Of a stretch of 46,982 nt of DNA, positions 26,600 to 37,713 are shown piece after piece. Below the pieces are notes generated by a model. The model did not search any database, was not told the DNA's origin, and saw nothing but the letters and a program-made list of their open reading frames with translations. Source of the DNA: Candidatus Omnitrophota bacterium (GTDB lineage Bacteria; Omnitrophota; Gorgyraeia; JAFGHF01); NCBI GenBank assembly GCA_016939375.1, contig JAFGHF010000008.1, positions 1-46,982 on the forward strand. The letters are read 5' to 3'. The translations under genes were made by a program, and so were the position numbers. Each line of letters begins with the position of its first letter. Position 1 is the first letter of the stretch.

Positions 26600-26881
26600 A
26601 TGAAAAAATTTCTATTGGGATTGATAGTAGGTATATTTTTAGCAAGTTACATTTATTTATTCCTTAATATCGGACCGCAATTCCATGTGACATTGGGCCA
26701 TCTCTTAGACAAAGACACATTGTATTTAAAAGACGGTTCGGTATTACAAGGTTGGATAATCAAAAAGGATTCTCGAAATATCTGGTTTGCCCAGGAAAAG
26801 GGTTATTTTACTTTACCTCTCTCTCAGTGCGAGATAATCCAGGAAAATGCCCTTCTGCAATATATTTGGGAGTTGATCTAA
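26600..26881 (+). CDS. Small membrane-anchored protein with K-D-G beta domain
   Basis: This is a 93-residue protein with one N-terminal membrane helix (about 5-25). A compact beta domain with 'LYLKDGSVLQGWIIKKDSRN' and 'GYFTLPLSQCEII' (about 40-81) follows. The same pattern occurs at the C-terminus of the GGDEF protein (36868) and in the peptidase-like protein (44571). No named family is known to me. It is the first gene behind the shared promoter and ends 2 nt before the PilZ gene start, so the two are likely partners. Confidence 0.65.
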   Translation: MKKFLLGLIVGIFLASYIYLFLNIGPQFHVTLGHLLDKDTLYLKDGSVLQGWIIKKDSRNIWFAQEKGYFTLPLSQCEIIQENALLQYIWELI

Positions 26882-26883
26882 GT

Positions 26884-27693
26884 TTGGATAACAATCCTAC
26901 CCCGCCACCTGAAAAACAAGAAAGAATTTTCTTTCGCTTGCCCATCAGGGTACGGGCTAAGACGATTTTTGCGGATCGGCCTGGTCCAGACATAGTAATA
27001 GATGAAATAAGCACTGCCGGGTTTTCTTTTTCAGTCAAGGCGCCGGTCGAATTTCCTGAAACCTTCGAAGTGTCATTTCGCCTGCCCGATTCTTTAAAGA
27101 TACTGAGGATCTCGGTAGAGGTGAAAGACCGTGTTAGCGTCAAGGATAAACAGAGGATAGGTTGCCGGTTTTCAGATATCTCCGATGAAAATAAAGAGAG
27201 GATCAATAACTACATTATCCAACTTTCCGATTTTTCCATACCCTGCGTTATACTTAGCATAGCTACTTTTTTACTTTCTATTGACGCCCTTTGCCGACTT
27301 TTTGCTTATTTGGCGATTATGAATTATGCCCGGGCGCCGTTCTTAAAAGGTTTTTCCGCGACATCCCTATCCCCTTATTATATTTTGCTACTTTGCTTCT
27401 ATGCATTTATCTGTTTTATGGCTCTGGTCTTTAGCGACGACATGAGAAAAAGAGGTTTCATGATAAACATATCCTGCGTAGGGTTTGCTTTTATCTTTAT
27501 TCTGGCGAAAAGTATTTTGTATTGGAAGGTACGCATGGGGCAAAGCCACTATTTAGTCTTGAACCCCTATTCTTGGATACAATTCGCCCTTTTGTTCTAT
27601 ACTGCTTTGGCAATAGTAGTGGGGGCTACTTATCTTAAACGGGTGGTCACTGTTTCCGATGCCCTCCAGGCCCATCGCAGAACAACACAGTAA
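26884..27693 (+). CDS. PilZ-domain membrane protein
   Basis: The open frame extends upstream to 26752. I prefer the TTG at 26884, 11 nt after GGGAG and 2 nt past the previous stop, because the longer N-terminus only re-reads the neighbouring gene. The PilZ c-di-GMP-binding domain occupies about 10-112: 'RIFFRLPIRVRAK' supplies RxxxR, and 'DEISTAGFSF' the (D/N)xSxxG turn. Four membrane helices follow (about 118-140, 155-178, 190-210 and 228-250). It is a candidate c-di-GMP receptor acting at the inner membrane. Confidence 0.78.
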   Translation: MDNNPTPPPEKQERIFFRLPIRVRAKTIFADRPGPDIVIDEISTAGFSFSVKAPVEFPETFEVSFRLPDSLKILRISVEVKDRVSVKDKQRIGCRFSDISDENKERINNYIIQLSDFSIPCVILSIATFLLSIDALCRLFAYLAIMNYARAPFLKGFSATSLSPYYILLLCFYAFICFMALVFSDDMRKRGFMINISCVGFAFIFILAKSILYWKVRMGQSHYLVLNPYSWIQFALLFYTALAIVVGATYLKRVVTVSDALQAHRRTTQ

Positions 27694-30564: not shown

Positions 30565-32031
30565 GTGAGACATTTAAAATTTGACTTTAACAATATGTTC
30601 AGCTCTAATGTGGGCAAAGACCATGGCGTTAGAGAAAATGAACTAAAAAACGCAACAAAAGTCATACAGAAAACACATAAGCATTTGAAAAAAATAATCA
30701 ATAGCCCCTTTGAGCGCATTGCCCTCGGCCTTGAATGGACACAGCTGCCCTATCAGAATAAGGGTACACTGGAACAGATCCAGGTTTTAGGCGATGAGAT
30801 AGCGAAAAGATTTGAAAATGTCGTCTTCTTAGGTATTGGTGGTTCATACCTAGGCCTTAAAGCCGCGCAGGATGCCCTGGCCCCCTGTTATTATAATGAA
30901 TTTAGTCCCTTGCGCAATAAACGCCCGCGAATATATTTTGAGGGCAATAATCTAGACGCCCAGACGCTCAGCGTATTAATAAAAAATCTCGAGCCCAAGA
31001 AGACCTTTGTAGTGGTGATCTCTAAATCGGGCGAAACAACAGAGACCAAAGCGGCGTTTCAAATAGTAGAAAGCTGGCTTAAAAAGCATGTGGGGAAAAG
31101 TTATGGCCGACAGGTCGTCGCTATTACCGATCCGCGTTCGGGAAGCTTAAGGAAGAAGGTGAATGCGGCCCACAGCCGGGATGCTTTAAGTTTTCGCAGT
31201 TTGCCGCTTTTAAAGGGTGTGGGCGGAAGGTTTTCCGAGTTTAATATGGGGCTTTTGCATTTGGCGATCATCGGAGTAGATATAAAAGAAGTGCTGGCGG
31301 GAGCCAGAGCCATGCTTAGACGGTGCAGTAGCCCTTCAGTATATGAAAATCCAGCCTATATGTATGCCCTGCTTCAGACGATCCTTTATATTAAAAAGAG
31401 AAAATCGATTGCAATATTAATGCCTTTTTCGGAAAAACTAAAATCGACAGCTGATTGGTATGTGCAGTTATTGGCCGAAAGCCTGGGAAAAAAATACGGT
31501 AGAAGGATCGAGACTGATTCATCTGGCAGGGAGATATGGAAAAAGGCTAACATAGTAAACCTGGGCCGGACCCCCATCTCTGCCCGGGGCACAAACGACC
31601 TGCATTCGATCCAGCAGAATAATATTGAAGGCGAAAACAATAAGACTGTTACTTTTGTGCGCGTAGCAAGCTTTGCCCGGGATCTGAGGACCCCTAAAGC
31701 AGGCGATTTCTTAAGCGATAGGAGCTATTGCAAATTGTTGAACTTGGCGCACGAGGCCACTGAATGGGCCCTATCCAGAGAAAAAAGGCCAAATTGCACT
31801 ATTATTATGCCGCAGGTGAACCCTTACCATTGGGGCGAACTTATCTTTTTCTTTGAGATAGCCACAGCTTTCGAAGGTGAATTATTGGAGGTAAACGCTT
31901 TTGACCAACCGGGGGTGGAAAGTTATAAAAATTATATGTATTACAAACTGCGCAGGCCCGGTATGCCTAAGGAAATCGCCAGAGAAATAAAAGATAACCC
32001 GTTAGTCAAGAAGACGAGATTTATTATCTAG
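30565..32031 (+). CDS. pgi: Glucose-6-phosphate isomerase
   Basis: It interconverts glucose-6-phosphate and fructose-6-phosphate in the cytoplasm. A GTG start gives 488 residues. Signature pieces: 'VVFLGIGGSYLGLKAAQDAL' (about 92-110, SIS phosphate loop), 'VVVISKSGETTETKAAF' (about 149-165), 'GGRFSEFNMGLLHLAIIG' (about 220-237) and the C-terminal 'NPYHWGELIFFFEIA' / 'DQPGVESYKNYMY'. The catalytic Glu, His and Lys contexts are all in place. The transaldolase gene follows after 26 nt, linking glycolysis and the pentose phosphate pathway. Confidence 0.95.
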   Translation: MRHLKFDFNNMFSSNVGKDHGVRENELKNATKVIQKTHKHLKKIINSPFERIALGLEWTQLPYQNKGTLEQIQVLGDEIAKRFENVVFLGIGGSYLGLKAAQDALAPCYYNEFSPLRNKRPRIYFEGNNLDAQTLSVLIKNLEPKKTFVVVISKSGETTETKAAFQIVESWLKKHVGKSYGRQVVAITDPRSGSLRKKVNAAHSRDALSFRSLPLLKGVGGRFSEFNMGLLHLAIIGVDIKEVLAGARAMLRRCSSPSVYENPAYMYALLQTILYIKKRKSIAILMPFSEKLKSTADWYVQLLAESLGKKYGRRIETDSSGREIWKKANIVNLGRTPISARGTNDLHSIQQNNIEGENNKTVTFVRVASFARDLRTPKAGDFLSDRSYCKLLNLAHEATEWALSREKRPNCTIIMPQVNPYHWGELIFFFEIATAFEGELLEVNAFDQPGVESYKNYMYYKLRRPGMPKEIAREIKDNPLVKKTRFII

Positions 32032-32057: not shown

Positions 32058-33191
32058 ATGGTTAAAACATCGATTCAGGATTTAGCAGCTCTGGGCCAGA
32101 GTGTGTGGCTGGATAATATCAACAGGTCGATGATCGAGAAAGGTATATTGAGAGAAATGATCGCTAAGGGTTTGCGGGGAGTGACTTCAAACCCTTCGAT
32201 TTTTGACAAAGCGATTTCTTTAAGCAAAGATTATGACCAAAAGATATTCGAGCTATTCGCAGCAGGTAAGTCTACATTCGATACATATGATGAACTTACT
32301 ATCAAAGACATTCAAGATGCCGCAGATATATTTTTGCCGGTGCATGAAGAGACTTCCGGCCTTGATGGATATATAAGCTTAGAGGTAAATCCCAAGCTGG
32401 CCTACGCGACTGAAGCTACGGTCAAAGAAGGCCTCAGGCTTCATCGCCAAGTAAACAGGCCAAATTTAATGTTAAAGGTCCCCTCCACAGAGCAGGGATA
32501 TCAGGCAGTGGAAGAATTGACCGCACATGGCATAAACGTAAATGTAACGCTTATCTTTTCTGTCGAGCAATATCGTAATTCCGCCCGGGCCTATATTCGA
32601 GGTATAAAGCGTTTTCTTCAGAATAAAGGAGAGCCTAAAGACGTGCGTTCCGTAGCCAGTGTATTCGTAAGCAGGGTCGATACGCTTGTCGATAAGCTCC
32701 TGGACCAAGCCCTTAGCTCCGAGCAAGCTAACGATGAAAAAGAAAAAATCAATTCCTTAAAAGGCAAAGCGGCAGTGGCAAATTCCAGCTTAATATATGG
32801 AGAATATTGGCGAATTTTCTCTGGCCCCGAATTTAAGGAACTTAAACAGAAAGGTGTCAACGCACAGAGGGTGTTGTGGGGTTCTACCAGCACCAAGAAT
32901 CCCGCATACAGCGATATCAAATATGTAAGCGAACTTATCGCCAGGAATACGATAAACACAATGCCCGAGGTGACTTTCCAGGCCTTTTTGGACCACGGTA
33001 TAGCAGAAGAGGCTTTAGGCGCTGATATCGCTAAAAGCGAAGGGGTGATCGGACGGTTATCCGCTTTGGGTATTGATGTCAATGAAGCCTGCGAGCAACT
33101 CTTAAAAGACGGAGTAATTGCATTTGAACGGTCATTTGAGTCTTTGTTGAAGGCTATAGAGAAAAAGGCCGCCTCTCTGTGTAAAAAATAG
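32058..33191 (+). CDS. tal: Transaldolase
   Basis: It transfers dihydroxyacetone units in the pentose phosphate pathway. 'LGQSVWLDNINRSMI' at the start, 'LRGVTSNPSIFDKAI' (about 38-52), the Schiff-base Lys in 'NLMLKVPSTEQGYQAVEEL' (about 136-154) and 'VNVTLIFSVEQYRN' (about 159-172) are the standard signatures. Length 377 matches the long Tal form often paired with pgi. It probably forms one operon with pgi and the two small ferritin-like genes that follow. Confidence 0.95.
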   Translation: MVKTSIQDLAALGQSVWLDNINRSMIEKGILREMIAKGLRGVTSNPSIFDKAISLSKDYDQKIFELFAAGKSTFDTYDELTIKDIQDAADIFLPVHEETSGLDGYISLEVNPKLAYATEATVKEGLRLHRQVNRPNLMLKVPSTEQGYQAVEELTAHGINVNVTLIFSVEQYRNSARAYIRGIKRFLQNKGEPKDVRSVASVFVSRVDTLVDKLLDQALSSEQANDEKEKINSLKGKAAVANSSLIYGEYWRIFSGPEFKELKQKGVNAQRVLWGSTSTKNPAYSDIKYVSELIARNTINTMPEVTFQAFLDHGIAEEALGADIAKSEGVIGRLSALGIDVNEACEQLLKDGVIAFERSFESLLKAIEKKAASLCKK

Positions 33192-33202: not shown

Positions 33203-33442
33203 ATGGTTGCTAAGGACGAGCTGTTAAAAGATTTAAGCGAATATTTAGCGCTGGAGGAAGAGATCATCAGGAATTTATCTACTTTTTTCCAGTATTTAGG
33301 CTGGAAGAATGAAGTTGCTCCAGAGGATTCCGAGAAGATCATGTCAGGCCTAAAGAGCCTACAGCAGGATACACAGAGGCATTCGGGGATAATCAAGGAT
33401 ATGCTTAAATATGTGGAGGTTTCGGGCAAGGATGAGTTCTAA
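33203..33442 (+). CDS. Small two-helix protein, degenerate half of a ferritin-like pair
   Basis: The 79 residues form helix-turn-helix hairpin sequence: 'EYLALEEEIIRNLSTFFQYLG' then 'GLKSLQQDTQRHSGIIKDMLKYV'. The layout mirrors the next gene (E-rich helix, then a helix ending D-x-x-R-H). The Glu of the metal-binding ExxH is replaced by Thr (TQRH). It could be a structural partner of the next protein. It is 11 nt after tal and overlaps the next start by 11 nt. Confidence 0.55.
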   Translation: MVAKDELLKDLSEYLALEEEIIRNLSTFFQYLGWKNEVAPEDSEKIMSGLKSLQQDTQRHSGIIKDMLKYVEVSGKDEF

Positions 33443-33629
33443 CGAGGTCTATAAAAAGGAATTTCAAAAAGCCCTGCTTATAGAAGAAAGGGCCAGGGAT
33501 TACTATAAATATTATATTGATAGAATAAAGGACGCCAAATTATTAGAAAAGTTTAAAGAGATCTACGCCGATGAGCAAAGACATGTTCAAGTTGTAAAGG
33601 AATTCATCGATATCCTTTCTAAAGAATAA
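33432..33629 (+). CDS. Small two-helix ferritin/rubrerythrin-like protein
   Basis: The 65-residue form from the ATG at 33432 is preferred, with GGAGG 12 nt upstream. Helix 1 'FQKALLIEERARDYYKYYIDRI' and helix 2 'LEKFKEIYADEQRHVQVVKEFI' supply E and ExxH (EQRH), the half-site of a di-iron ferritin-like bundle. A four-helix bundle needs two such units, so homodimerisation or pairing with the preceding protein is expected. Iron binding is inferred from motif only. Confidence 0.6.
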   Translation: MSSNEVYKKEFQKALLIEERARDYYKYYIDRIKDAKLLEKFKEIYADEQRHVQVVKEFIDILSKE

Positions 33630-33638
33630 GGGGTGCTA

Positions 33639-34712
33639 ATGAAGAAGCTTAAAAGAGCCGTCTTGGCTCAGATGATATTATCTATTTTTTTGTTTTTCTC
33701 GCTTTCCTGCGGCTATGCCCAAGAGGACCAGCGGGATTCAGAAAATCCCTATGGAGTATTGGGATTTTTGCCTTGGCAGCACCCCTGGAATAGTTACCAT
33801 TATGATACGATTGAGAAGGTCGAGAAGGCAGTGAAATTGATGAGTGAAGCAGGGGTGGGTTTTGTCAGGCTCGATTTTCTCTGGTATGACTTGGAGCCTG
33901 AGCCGGGTGTATTTGATTTTGAATGGTATGATCAGGTAGTGGATGTATTATGGGCAAACGATATAAAGATCCTGGCGCTTTTACATTATAATCCCCGCTG
34001 GCGCCAAGATGTACCCTGGAATGCGCCTCCGGATTTTGACCTTTACAAAAGATATGCTACGGCTATGGTAGAACATTTTAAAGATAGGGTCAAATATTGG
34101 GAGATCTGGAATGAGCCTGATGAAAAGACATATTGGCAGCCTCAGGACGATATGCAGACATATACTGCTTTACTGAAGATGATCTACCCCGAAATAAAAA
34201 AAGTCGACCCCAGCGCTCAAGTGCTTATGGGCGGGGTCTCCAAAACCATAACAGTCTCTTTAAAAAGGATCTACAGAAACGGCGGTAAGGACTTTTTTGA
34301 CGTTGTCAATATCCATCCCTTTGTAGATCCTTTGGCCCCCGATGCGATAGATTATGTAAAAGGTATATATAATGGCGTGTGCAAGGAAATGGCCAAATAC
34401 GGCGATCAGGATAAGAAAATATGGTTTACCGAGATCGGCTGTCCGGGAGTAAAAGAGTCGACCCGGGAAAACGGCTGGTGGAATGGTATCAGCCCTACAG
34501 AAGAACAGCAGGCGCAGTGGGTGGATACAGTGTTTTCAGAGTGCCTGAAGTGGCCCGGCGTAGATAAGGTATTTTGGGCCTTTTTTAGAGACACAGATGA
34601 GCATTTTAAATCGGGAGTGGACTATTTTGGTCTGATCAGAAACGATTTTACTGCAAAACCAGCCTATACAGCTTATAAAAGAATAGCTGCAGAAGCGCAG
34701 AAGGAGGAATAG
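33639..34712 (+). CDS. Secreted clan GH-A glycoside hydrolase (GH39/GH5-like)
   Basis: The ATG at 33639 follows AAGGGG by 5 nt; a GTG two codons earlier overlaps that site. A signal peptide (GYA-QE, about 28) leads into a TIM-barrel of ~330 residues. 'VGFVRLDFLWYDLEPEPGVFDFEWYD' is the early barrel motif. The acid/base Glu is in 'YWEIWNEPDE' (E159) and the nucleophile Glu in 'IWFTEIGCPG' (E265), 106 residues apart. This is the clan GH-A arrangement. Substrate cannot be told; beta-xylosidase, cellulase and related activities occur in this group. Confidence 0.85.
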   Translation: MKKLKRAVLAQMILSIFLFFSLSCGYAQEDQRDSENPYGVLGFLPWQHPWNSYHYDTIEKVEKAVKLMSEAGVGFVRLDFLWYDLEPEPGVFDFEWYDQVVDVLWANDIKILALLHYNPRWRQDVPWNAPPDFDLYKRYATAMVEHFKDRVKYWEIWNEPDEKTYWQPQDDMQTYTALLKMIYPEIKKVDPSAQVLMGGVSKTITVSLKRIYRNGGKDFFDVVNIHPFVDPLAPDAIDYVKGIYNGVCKEMAKYGDQDKKIWFTEIGCPGVKESTRENGWWNGISPTEEQQAQWVDTVFSECLKWPGVDKVFWAFFRDTDEHFKSGVDYFGLIRNDFTAKPAYTAYKRIAAEAQKEE

Positions 34713-35282: not shown

Positions 35283-36044
35283 GTGGCGAAAAAAAAGATC
35301 TTGGTAGTAGATGATGAAGCCGCTTTGGTCGATATGATAAAGATGAGGCTAGAGGCCAGTGATTATGAAGTCGTCACTGCCTCTGACGGCCAAGAGGGCT
35401 TTGAAAAAATAGAAGCAGAAAAGCCGGATTTGGTAATCTTGGATATCCTGATGCCCAAGATGAGCGGATATGACCTGTTGCGCAAACTAAGGCAAGAGAA
35501 AGGTGCTATCCAATATACTCCTGTATTGGTCGTATCTGCGCGAGGCAGGATGAAAAGCCTGTTTGAAGAGATAGGAATAAGTGACTTTTTAGCCAAGCCT
35601 TTTGACGGTCTGGAGTTAATGGATAGGGTCGAGAGGATTTTGTCCAAACAAGAGCAGAAAAAGGCGGCAAAGAGAAAAGCCCTGTTAATAGCCAGGGACA
35701 GAGAGATAAGAGAGCTTTTAGAGGCGTTTTTGGGGGCACAGATATTTTCTGTCTTCACGGCCGAAAATGGCTCACAGGGTATCGAGAGAGCGGTCAAGGA
35801 GCAACCGGATATAGTATTATGTCAATCTATACTTGAAGATATGAATGCCACGGAGGTATTCCGGGTCATGCGAGGAATGAGCGCTATGGCAAGAATCCCC
35901 TTTATCATATTCAGCTCGCAAGAAGCGGCTTTTGTAGTGGAAAAGGCATCCCCGGGGCAAGAGCTTATCGAATATAGCAGGCCCGAAGACCTGATCAAGA
36001 AATTAGGCCAGTATTTAAACGAATATGGAGAGGCAAATGCCTAA
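35283..36044 (+). CDS. Response regulator with two receiver domains
   Basis: A GTG start gives 253 residues. Receiver 1 (about 4-120) is complete: 'ILVVDDE', phospho-acceptor D54 in 'LVILDILMPKMSG', Ser in 'VLVVSAR' and Lys in 'FLAKPFD'. Receiver 2 (about 135-250) is degenerate; the Asp position is Gln ('DIVLCQSILEDMN') and the Lys is missing. There is no DNA-binding or enzymatic output domain, so signalling would be by protein contact. The next gene, a membrane protein, overlaps by 8 nt and is the likely partner. It lies behind leader copy 2. Confidence 0.88.
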   Translation: MAKKKILVVDDEAALVDMIKMRLEASDYEVVTASDGQEGFEKIEAEKPDLVILDILMPKMSGYDLLRKLRQEKGAIQYTPVLVVSARGRMKSLFEEIGISDFLAKPFDGLELMDRVERILSKQEQKKAAKRKALLIARDREIRELLEAFLGAQIFSVFTAENGSQGIERAVKEQPDIVLCQSILEDMNATEVFRVMRGMSAMARIPFIIFSSQEAAFVVEKASPGQELIEYSRPEDLIKKLGQYLNEYGEANA

Positions 36045-36867: not shown

Positions 36868-37713
36868 ATGGAAGATATCAATCTAAGTGGCGTACAAAAG
36901 GACTTTTTGACCGGTTTTTACAACAGAGAACAGCTTAACCCCACACTGGAAAAAAGGATTTCCGACGCCAATATCCATAAGAAAAAATTCTGCATACTTC
37001 TTGTAGATATCGACCATTTTAAAAAGATCAATGATACATACGGACATCTTTGGGGAGATGAATTTTTAAAATATGTATCCAGTACCCTGCGCCTGACCCT
37101 GCAGGATCAGGGGGTGATCTTCCGCTACGGGGGAGATGAATTTGTAGTAGTATTTAAAGACCCCGATCCCAAAAAGGCCTTTGCCTTGGCCAAGACATTT
37201 AATGTGGTGATGCGCAATCGCCCTTTCCTTTTTAATGGCAAGCTTTTCAGAATTACTATAAGTTGCGGCTTGGCCACGTTTCCCGATGATGCCAGAGATT
37301 CGGAAAACTTGATGAAGATAGCCGATAAGGCCATGTACTACTCTAAAAGATACGGACGTAATATGACTATACCCGCCAATAAAATTGGCCTTTATAAACT
37401 GAAAAGAATGGTTTCCCTCTCAGTCAAGGCTTTAGTCGTATTTATAATAGTGGGATTTGTCGGCAGCTATTTCTTCAAAGACCAAATAAAGGCCTATATC
37501 CCCCAAGGTTTAGGGGGAAGAGGGTTTAAGAATGTAATCCCGGTAAAATTCGACACAGATACCAAAGTCATCTTAAAGACCGGAGACGTAATTTTAGGGC
37601 GTAAGGTCGCCGAAGACGAAAATACCTTGGTCTTGGAGATGGCTATGGGCCGGGGCAGCGGCAAAATAACTGTAGAAAAAAGCAAAATATTAAGTATCGA
37701 ATATACTAAGTGA
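36868..37713 (+). CDS. Diguanylate cyclase (GGDEF) with C-terminal membrane helix and K-T-G beta domain
   Basis: It makes c-di-GMP. The GGDEF domain (about 10-168) has 'DIDHFKKINDTYGHLWGDEFL' and an intact active-site RYGGDEF at 86-92. The product-inhibition I-site RxxD is absent (Q-D-Q-G at that place). A membrane helix follows (about 180-205), then a short domain of about 50 residues ending in 'LKTGDVILGRKVAEDEN' and 'GKITVEKSKILSIEY'. This domain is shared with the small protein at 26600. The enzyme is therefore cytoplasmic with an extracytoplasmic tail, the reverse of the usual sensor-first order. Confidence 0.9.
   Translation: MEDINLSGVQKDFLTGFYNREQLNPTLEKRISDANIHKKKFCILLVDIDHFKKINDTYGHLWGDEFLKYVSSTLRLTLQDQGVIFRYGGDEFVVVFKDPDPKKAFALAKTFNVVMRNRPFLFNGKLFRITISCGLATFPDDARDSENLMKIADKAMYYSKRYGRNMTIPANKIGLYKLKRMVSLSVKALVVFIIVGFVGSYFFKDQIKAYIPQGLGGRGFKNVIPVKFDTDTKVILKTGDVILGRKVAEDENTLVLEMAMGRGSGKITVEKSKILSIEYTK

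Follow-up and report, generated by a model that had tools for sequence, protein, structure and literature searches.

Two short overlapping genes, here called A and B, form a pair that is not a chance arrangement, as it recurs in 88 non-redundant copies in Candidatus Omnitrophota, of which 62 overlap by exactly 11 nt, including pairs of another class with a different overlap sequence. We infer an obligate, asymmetric and heteromeric pair of half-ferritins that would bind metal and act as a redox, O2 or metal sensor module, and we give this reading an even chance of being correct. It draws on the conservation of the pair and its putative ligands, on the fusion of B to signalling domains and on the genes found beside the pair in relatives.

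The gene pair in the window and in its relatives

The window is the whole stretch of DNA that was analysed, 46,982 nt of contig JAFGHF010000008.1 from a Candidatus Omnitrophota bacterium. The features to which the argument refers are as follows, with residue counts from an alignment of 88 pairs.

30565-32031, + strand: pgi, 5' of tal; Pfam PGI, E = 3.1e-26
32058..33191, + strand: tal, stops 11 nt 5' of A; Pfam TAL_FSA, E = 2.5e-79
33203..33442, + strand: gene A, predicted half-ferritin-like hairpin without the ExxH Glu, 79 aa
33254..33256, + strand: A Glu18 (Glu in 85/88)
33371..33373, + strand: A Thr57, the Glu position of ExxH (Ser 49, Thr 23, Gln 10, Cys 2, Lys 2, Ala 2; n = 88)
33380..33382, + strand: A His60 (88/88)
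33432..33442, + strand: overlap of A and B, 11 nt (equal length in 62/88 pairs)
33432..33629, + strand: gene B, predicted EncFtn-like half-ferritin hairpin, 65 aa from ATG 33432
33483..33485, + strand: B Glu18, EncFtn Glu32 by spacing (Glu 64, Asp 11; n = 88)
33504..33506, + strand: B Tyr25, EncFtn Tyr39 by spacing (Tyr in 69/88)
33573..33575, + strand: B Glu48, EncFtn Glu62 by spacing (75/88)
33582..33584, + strand: B His51, EncFtn His65 by spacing (75/88)
33639..34712, + strand: glycoside-hydrolase-like gene from ATG 33639, 9 nt past B; best Pfam match Glyco_hydro_42
35283..36044, + strand: response-regulator receiver protein with two receiver stretches, downstream of greA
36868..37713, + strand: GGDEF protein, downstream of A-B

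B would comprise 72 aa if the upstream ATG at 33411 were taken as its start. The first-pass annotation had described two ORFs of 79 and 65 aa with an 11-nt overlap behind pgi and tal, with ExxH only in the second product and Thr in place of its Glu in the first. The coordinates and Pfam matches listed above bear out this arrangement, and so do the residues, which read T57-Q-R-H60 in A and E48-Q-R-H51 in B, next to Glu18 in both and Tyr25 in B. It had furthermore assigned to each protein an E-rich helix and a helix ending in x-Q-R-H; the first helix is indeed E-rich in A and B, but x-Q-R-H sits in the middle of helix 2 and not at its end. QRH itself varies among relatives, the conserved part being [S/T]xxH in A and ExxH in B.

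Downstream of the pair, a single strand carries the glycoside-hydrolase-like gene, greA, the two-receiver regulator, a gene without Pfam match and the GGDEF gene, in this order; the first of these is probably in one operon with B. A PilZ-containing gene is located upstream on the strand shared with A-B (26752-27693), and its PilZ match (26920-27219, E = 6e-10) is the only one inside the window among the 18 PilZ matches of this genome.

Searching with B itself gave matches in 12 of 39 genomes, mainly inside longer ferritin-like ORFs, and two of the matches were short B homologues, each behind an A-like ORF with an 11-nt overlap. A profile of three A proteins, applied to the class, matched 57 of 384 genomes at E<=0.01 (35 of the 221 good-quality ones), and a wider A profile, applied to a phylum draw, matched 99 of 384 at E<=1e-3, although 28 of these matches, weak and partial at E 2e-5 to 8.5e-4, were judged unrelated and set aside; they are located in ORFs of at least 162 aa, most of them about 500 aa. 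The pair set was built from 77 regions fetched around matches, the window and the search loci, some short weak matches of the A profile searches being left out; A was identified by a local HMM (E<=1e-4, 1e-8 and 1e-6 over three rounds) and B was then sought downstream. The rounds yielded 61, then 83, then 88 non-redundant pairs, the final set being distributed over 81 loci. Each of the 88 different A ORFs is followed by a B, with no A lacking one, and the weakest B match (E 0.014, L101) belongs to one of the copies with altered ligands described below. In two fetched regions (L102, L104) A was not found above threshold; a short ORF similar to the lone half-ferritin ORF described below scored weakly in L102.

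Across the 88 pairs, the start of B ranges from 38 nt upstream to 55 nt downstream of the end of A, and the identity of 41 compared B proteins to window B is 16-53%. Overlap and neighbours may persist through common descent alone. Named records with the pair, 11 loci from a contig scan, all belong to Candidatus Omnitrophota/Omnitrophica (e.g., Ca. Tantalella remota and Ca. Aadella gelida), a scan that used the motifs of one subfamily only and therefore says nothing on absence in other phyla. The pair was not found in plasmids or viral contigs. Among the literature matches listed, none describes paired half-ferritin genes of this kind, and the main text of an Omnitrophota survey (PMC10066038) contains no occurrence of ferritin, rubrerythrin, cellulose, exopolysaccharide, encapsulin or superoxide.

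Fold, ligands and a branch with altered sites

With each chain predicted alone, AlphaFold2 returned helical hairpins for both proteins, as the first-pass annotation had proposed, consisting of helices 3-29 and 35-64 in B (mean pLDDT 96.6) and of helices 4-31 and 40-73 in A (mean pLDDT 91.2). Through the 11-nt overlap, A often acquires a short acidic/aromatic C-terminal tail (DEF, NEY, DVY). As the model of A shows strand-type residues at 3 and 78, this tail may have a structural role besides arising from the overlap.

An hhalign comparison identifies A and B as homologues (probability 97.1, E 5.7e-11). Compared with solved proteins, the B profile had its best PDB sequence match in the designed diiron protein 2hz8 (E 1.8e-11) and also found EncC (1.1e-5), EncB (2.3e-5) and P. 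furiosus EncFtn (3.2e-5), with bacterioferritin and other helical proteins likewise among its matches. At E<=0.01, the NCBIfam model EncB_fam matched 27 of 42 B proteins and TIGR04535 (encapsulin-ferritin) 19; the Pfam models matching these proteins were Rubrerythrin (17 at E<=0.01), DUF2383 (17) and EncFtn-like (6), and Rubrerythrin was in addition matched by 6 of 48 A proteins. Window B stays just below the cut-off of 22.8 for Pfam Rubrerythrin PF02915 (E=2.9e-4, 21.6 bits) and far below that of 90 for EncB_fam, the model of encapsulin ferritin cargo (E=0.0087, 16.1 bits), and for window A the Pfam search gave nothing useful, Rubrerythrin being unmatched. The best 50 Foldseek matches of B were mostly EncFtn-type (TM up to 0.87, E 0.16 or worse) and included katanin hairpins, the matches of A began with designed hairpins and unrelated proteins, EncFtn appearing once, at rank 22, and in the VIA-align Z scores EncB and EncC were tied with unrelated coiled coils. 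Hairpins being common, the fold comparison adds little, and we rejected it as proof of kinship because both hairpins match many unrelated ones. Judged by its sequence, B belongs to the ferritin-like superfamily, and because its ligand spacing of 30/33/7 exactly equals that of EncFtn we assign it as an EncFtn-type half and A as a diverged half without the ExxH Glu. The likeness to encapsulated ferritins suggested earlier is thus upheld for B, in ligand spacing as well as by profile.

The asymmetry noted in the window extends to the homologues. Position 57 of A is Ser or Thr in 72 of the 88 pairs and Glu in none, and the B ligand set, [ED]...ExxH, is intact in 75. The suggestion that each protein holds one metal half-site was therefore too generous, since A lacks the ExxH Glu in every pair; A may provide only a partial half-site. 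In the A+B tree, the window pair groups with L060 only (support 100).

In the other 13 pairs all three B ligand positions are changed, A His60 being kept in each of them, and these pairs cluster as a single branch of the tree, with an SH-aLRT of 99 and one change. All 13 retain the 11-nt overlap, and among the 12 mapped, a GT2 gene immediately precedes the pair in eight and a receiver gene immediately follows it in 11 (examples of the broken pairs are L080:4523-4946, L065:6010-6433 and L081:385-814). Since 13 of 88 pairs have lost all three B ligands, the pair has a use without the site of B. In five fetched regions (L065, L080, L082, L084 and L088) such a broken pair lies within about 9 kb of an intact one. 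Ser or Thr at A57 is present in 72 of 75 intact pairs versus 0 of 13 broken pairs; the tree needs a single change and has one independent pair, so this link between A57 and the B site carries no statistical weight and we dropped the co-variation as evidence of contact.

The window genome also encodes, on contig C53, a lone half-ferritin ORF of 59 aa that keeps ExxH as E-E-E-K-H (L177:3777-3956, minus strand), around which the A-B pair was not found; in contrast to A-B, its product is possibly a symmetric homodimer.

Genomic settings, fusions and the proposed role

The gene maps of relatives rest on BLAST clusters, with Pfam applied to example loci only, and names such as FDP or Rbr on them are our own labels. 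Three settings recur. The first consists of oxygen-defence islands and is represented by a clade of 14 pairs (support 99), in 13 of which a TrxB-like gene directly precedes A and an 8-oxoguanine-glycosylase-like gene directly follows B; in the example examined with Pfam (L054), the island contains a pyridine-nucleotide reductase, Ogg-HhH, desulfoferrodoxin, a rubrerythrin-family protein, glutaredoxin, rubredoxin and Rrf2. Moreover, in the nearest relative of the window pair (L060) Pfam identifies an AhpC/TSA-family protein before A and desulfoferrodoxin after B. The second setting comprises exopolysaccharide operons; of the 56 mapped loci, 25 contain a GT2 gene belonging to a single cluster (three of three Pfam-tested matched GT2 and Cellulose_synt), with TPR proteins, GH26 or GH8 enzymes and receivers as neighbours. 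We dropped the idea that this GT2 protein of about 610 aa carries a PilZ domain of its own, as Pfam found none in the two tested. The third setting combines a CRP-family regulator, a hemerythrin HHE protein and A-B, as seen with Pfam in L099, L128 and L130 (the hemerythrin match of L130 being below cut-off, E 5e-4) and by sequence clusters in five more loci. The exopolysaccharide/c-di-GMP and CRP/hemerythrin settings, like the fusions of B described below, go beyond the first-pass annotation. The redox or oxygen-defence link that it considered possible is strong in many relatives; in the window, the pair is surrounded by sugar-metabolism and signalling genes and not by oxygen-defence genes.

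B exceeds 100 aa in 15 of the 88 pairs, being fused to PilZ (12), REC-CofD (2) or GGDEF (1); the remaining 73, the window copy among them, are without an output domain. The two REC-CofD fusions (L124:4270-5769 and L136:7118-8629), in which B is joined to a receiver stretch and a CofD-family domain, have an unusual architecture, the receiver being below cut-off in one of them. At L128:7034-8765, two A-B pairs stand in tandem behind a CRP-family regulator and hemerythrin, with the first B fused to GGDEF. A is never fused and, from the chosen start codons, never longer than 90 aa (n=88). Because only B is fused, B would be the input domain, placed N-terminally, and A the partner that always stays free.

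In the mechanism that we propose, the overlapping genes would yield two paralogous half-ferritin hairpins, A and B, whose synthesis is coupled, presumably at translation, and the two proteins would assemble as a four-helix bundle whose di-metal site, probably for iron, is unequal. To this site B would give Glu18, Tyr25, Glu48 and His51, and A Glu18 and His60, with Ser or Thr standing in place of the ExxH Glu. Such a weakened, lopsided site might work as a redox, O2/ROS or iron switch and not as an iron store. Where B is fused, it would relay the signal by its PilZ, GGDEF or REC-CofD domain, and elsewhere via its neighbours, the presumed output being exopolysaccharide synthesis and oxygen-defence genes. 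The sensor reading is suggested by the fusions of B to PilZ, GGDEF and REC-CofD, with receiver and GGDEF genes also near the window pair, and the redox link by the TrxB-like/glycosylase-like islands, the AhpC/TSA and desulfoferrodoxin genes of L060, and CRP and hemerythrin beside A-B. More tentatively, and with less confidence than we place in the sensor module as such, the pair may represent a new class of c-di-GMP/redox input module, an obligate and asymmetric two-gene half-ferritin heterodimer in which Ser/Thr-for-Glu creates a labile O2, redox or iron switch, wired across Omnitrophota to exopolysaccharide synthases (PilZ, GGDEF), CRP/hemerythrin circuits and oxygen-defence islands, the side branch without B ligands having become a fixed neighbour of the synthase.

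The island clade would also suit a small enzyme that disposes of H2O2 or Fe2+, namely a rubrerythrin-like peroxidase or ferroxidase in split form, supplied by the TrxB-like reductase and the glutaredoxin encoded nearby. The TrxB-like gene directly upstream in 13 of 14 members points this way, as do the superoxide reductase, rubrerythrin-like proteins, glutaredoxin and 8-oxoguanine glycosylase nearby and the Pfam Rubrerythrin matches of B (17/42 at E<=0.01). We nevertheless consider a split enzyme unlikely: it leaves the B-PilZ, B-GGDEF and B-REC-CofD fusions and the copies in exopolysaccharide operons unexplained, and the missing Glu should weaken diiron chemistry, to judge from EncFtn, where E32A abrogated metal binding and the effect of E62A was similar (PMC5012862).

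The two other explanations concern what A contributes and whether metal is involved at all. B could be an EncFtn-like homodimer with a symmetric diiron site that A caps or breaks, so that the switch would lie between B-B and A-B; B holds every ligand of an EncFtn half-site and its homologue A lacks one, the overlapping genes suggest a fixed dosage, and the lone ExxH half-ferritin of the same genome makes homodimeric halves plausible there. A mere cap, however, would need neither Glu18 nor His60, which A keeps in 85 and 88 of the 88 pairs, at least as often as B keeps its full set (75/88), and this makes the capped homodimer improbable in our view. Finally, the pair could be free of metal and serve the exopolysaccharide synthase and other partners as a helical scaffold or adaptor, its acidic and His residues being structural. 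The 13 pairs without B ligands fit this, as they stay paired, all with the 11-nt overlap, and, where mapped, mostly stand after GT2 and before a receiver gene, but they form one single branch, and all B ligands are kept in the other 75 pairs despite an identity to window B of only 16-53%, so that we hold a scaffold to be very improbable. The heteromeric sensor module remains our preferred reading.

Significance and comparison with known systems

Ferritin-like four-helix bundles are commonly thought to derive from a doubled two-helix half. In A-B, two halves persist as separate, unequal and always-paired genes, so that one could study directly how a symmetric homodimer turned into an asymmetric bundle. 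If the pair is a sensor, it would moreover add a ferritin-type input to c-di-GMP signalling and provide a testable role for a gene pair spread through the uncultured phylum Omnitrophota.

Among known systems, EncFtn, EncB and EncC (Pfam EncFtn-like PF22277, NCBIfam EncB_fam NF058679) share with A and B the two-helix hairpin subunit. The ferroxidase ligands of EncFtn are Glu32, Glu62, His65 and Tyr39 from two identical chains (PMC5012862), and B carries E18, Y25, E48 and H51 at the spacing of Glu32, Tyr39, Glu62 and His65. A-B differs in having two unlike subunits, of which A is without ExxH, in the fusion of some B copies to signalling domains, and in the score of window B, which is below that curated for EncB_fam. 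Furthermore, the lack of an encapsulin gene nearby, remarked on in the first-pass annotation, extends to the genomes searched: encapsulin PF04454, the only encapsulin model used, was above cut-off in none of 59 genomes (the window genome and 58 relatives), with a single match below threshold, found in one of the relatives (E 7e-4), and the same search found matches in 3 of 14 known genomes as a control.

Rubrerythrin holds both halves in one chain. Its likeness to A-B (PF02915) lies in the ExxH ferritin-like helices of B, and its difference in that the halves of A-B are separate and unequal genes; the check for fused homologues, proposed with the first description, showed that in none of the 88 pairs are A and B joined in frame as a single chain. 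By its sequence features, A-B is thus neither EncFtn, since A is without ExxH, no PF04454 encapsulin accompanies the pair and the score is below the curated one, nor rubrerythrin. Designed diiron four-helix proteins (2hz8 and related ones) resemble B in being built on ExxH; they are artificial, and what is common to both is the motif and not descent.

For the proposed function, a counterpart is offered by hemerythrin. The main text of a review of c-di-GMP inputs (PMC8846402) contains no occurrence of ferritin or rubrerythrin, and a ferritin-type two-gene input was not present among the literature matches listed, as far as their available parts go. Hemerythrin domains provide both a diguanylate cyclase and a c-di-GMP phosphodiesterase with a non-heme diiron input, and the redox state sets the activity of these enzymes (PMC9388753, PMC8846402). 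The domains differ from A-B in their own ligand set of five His, one Glu and one Asp, held in a single chain. Because hemerythrin domains drive c-di-GMP enzymes by redox state, the wiring from diiron to c-di-GMP has a precedent, and A-B would resemble them, if the sensor reading is right, as a non-heme diiron input acting on c-di-GMP outputs.
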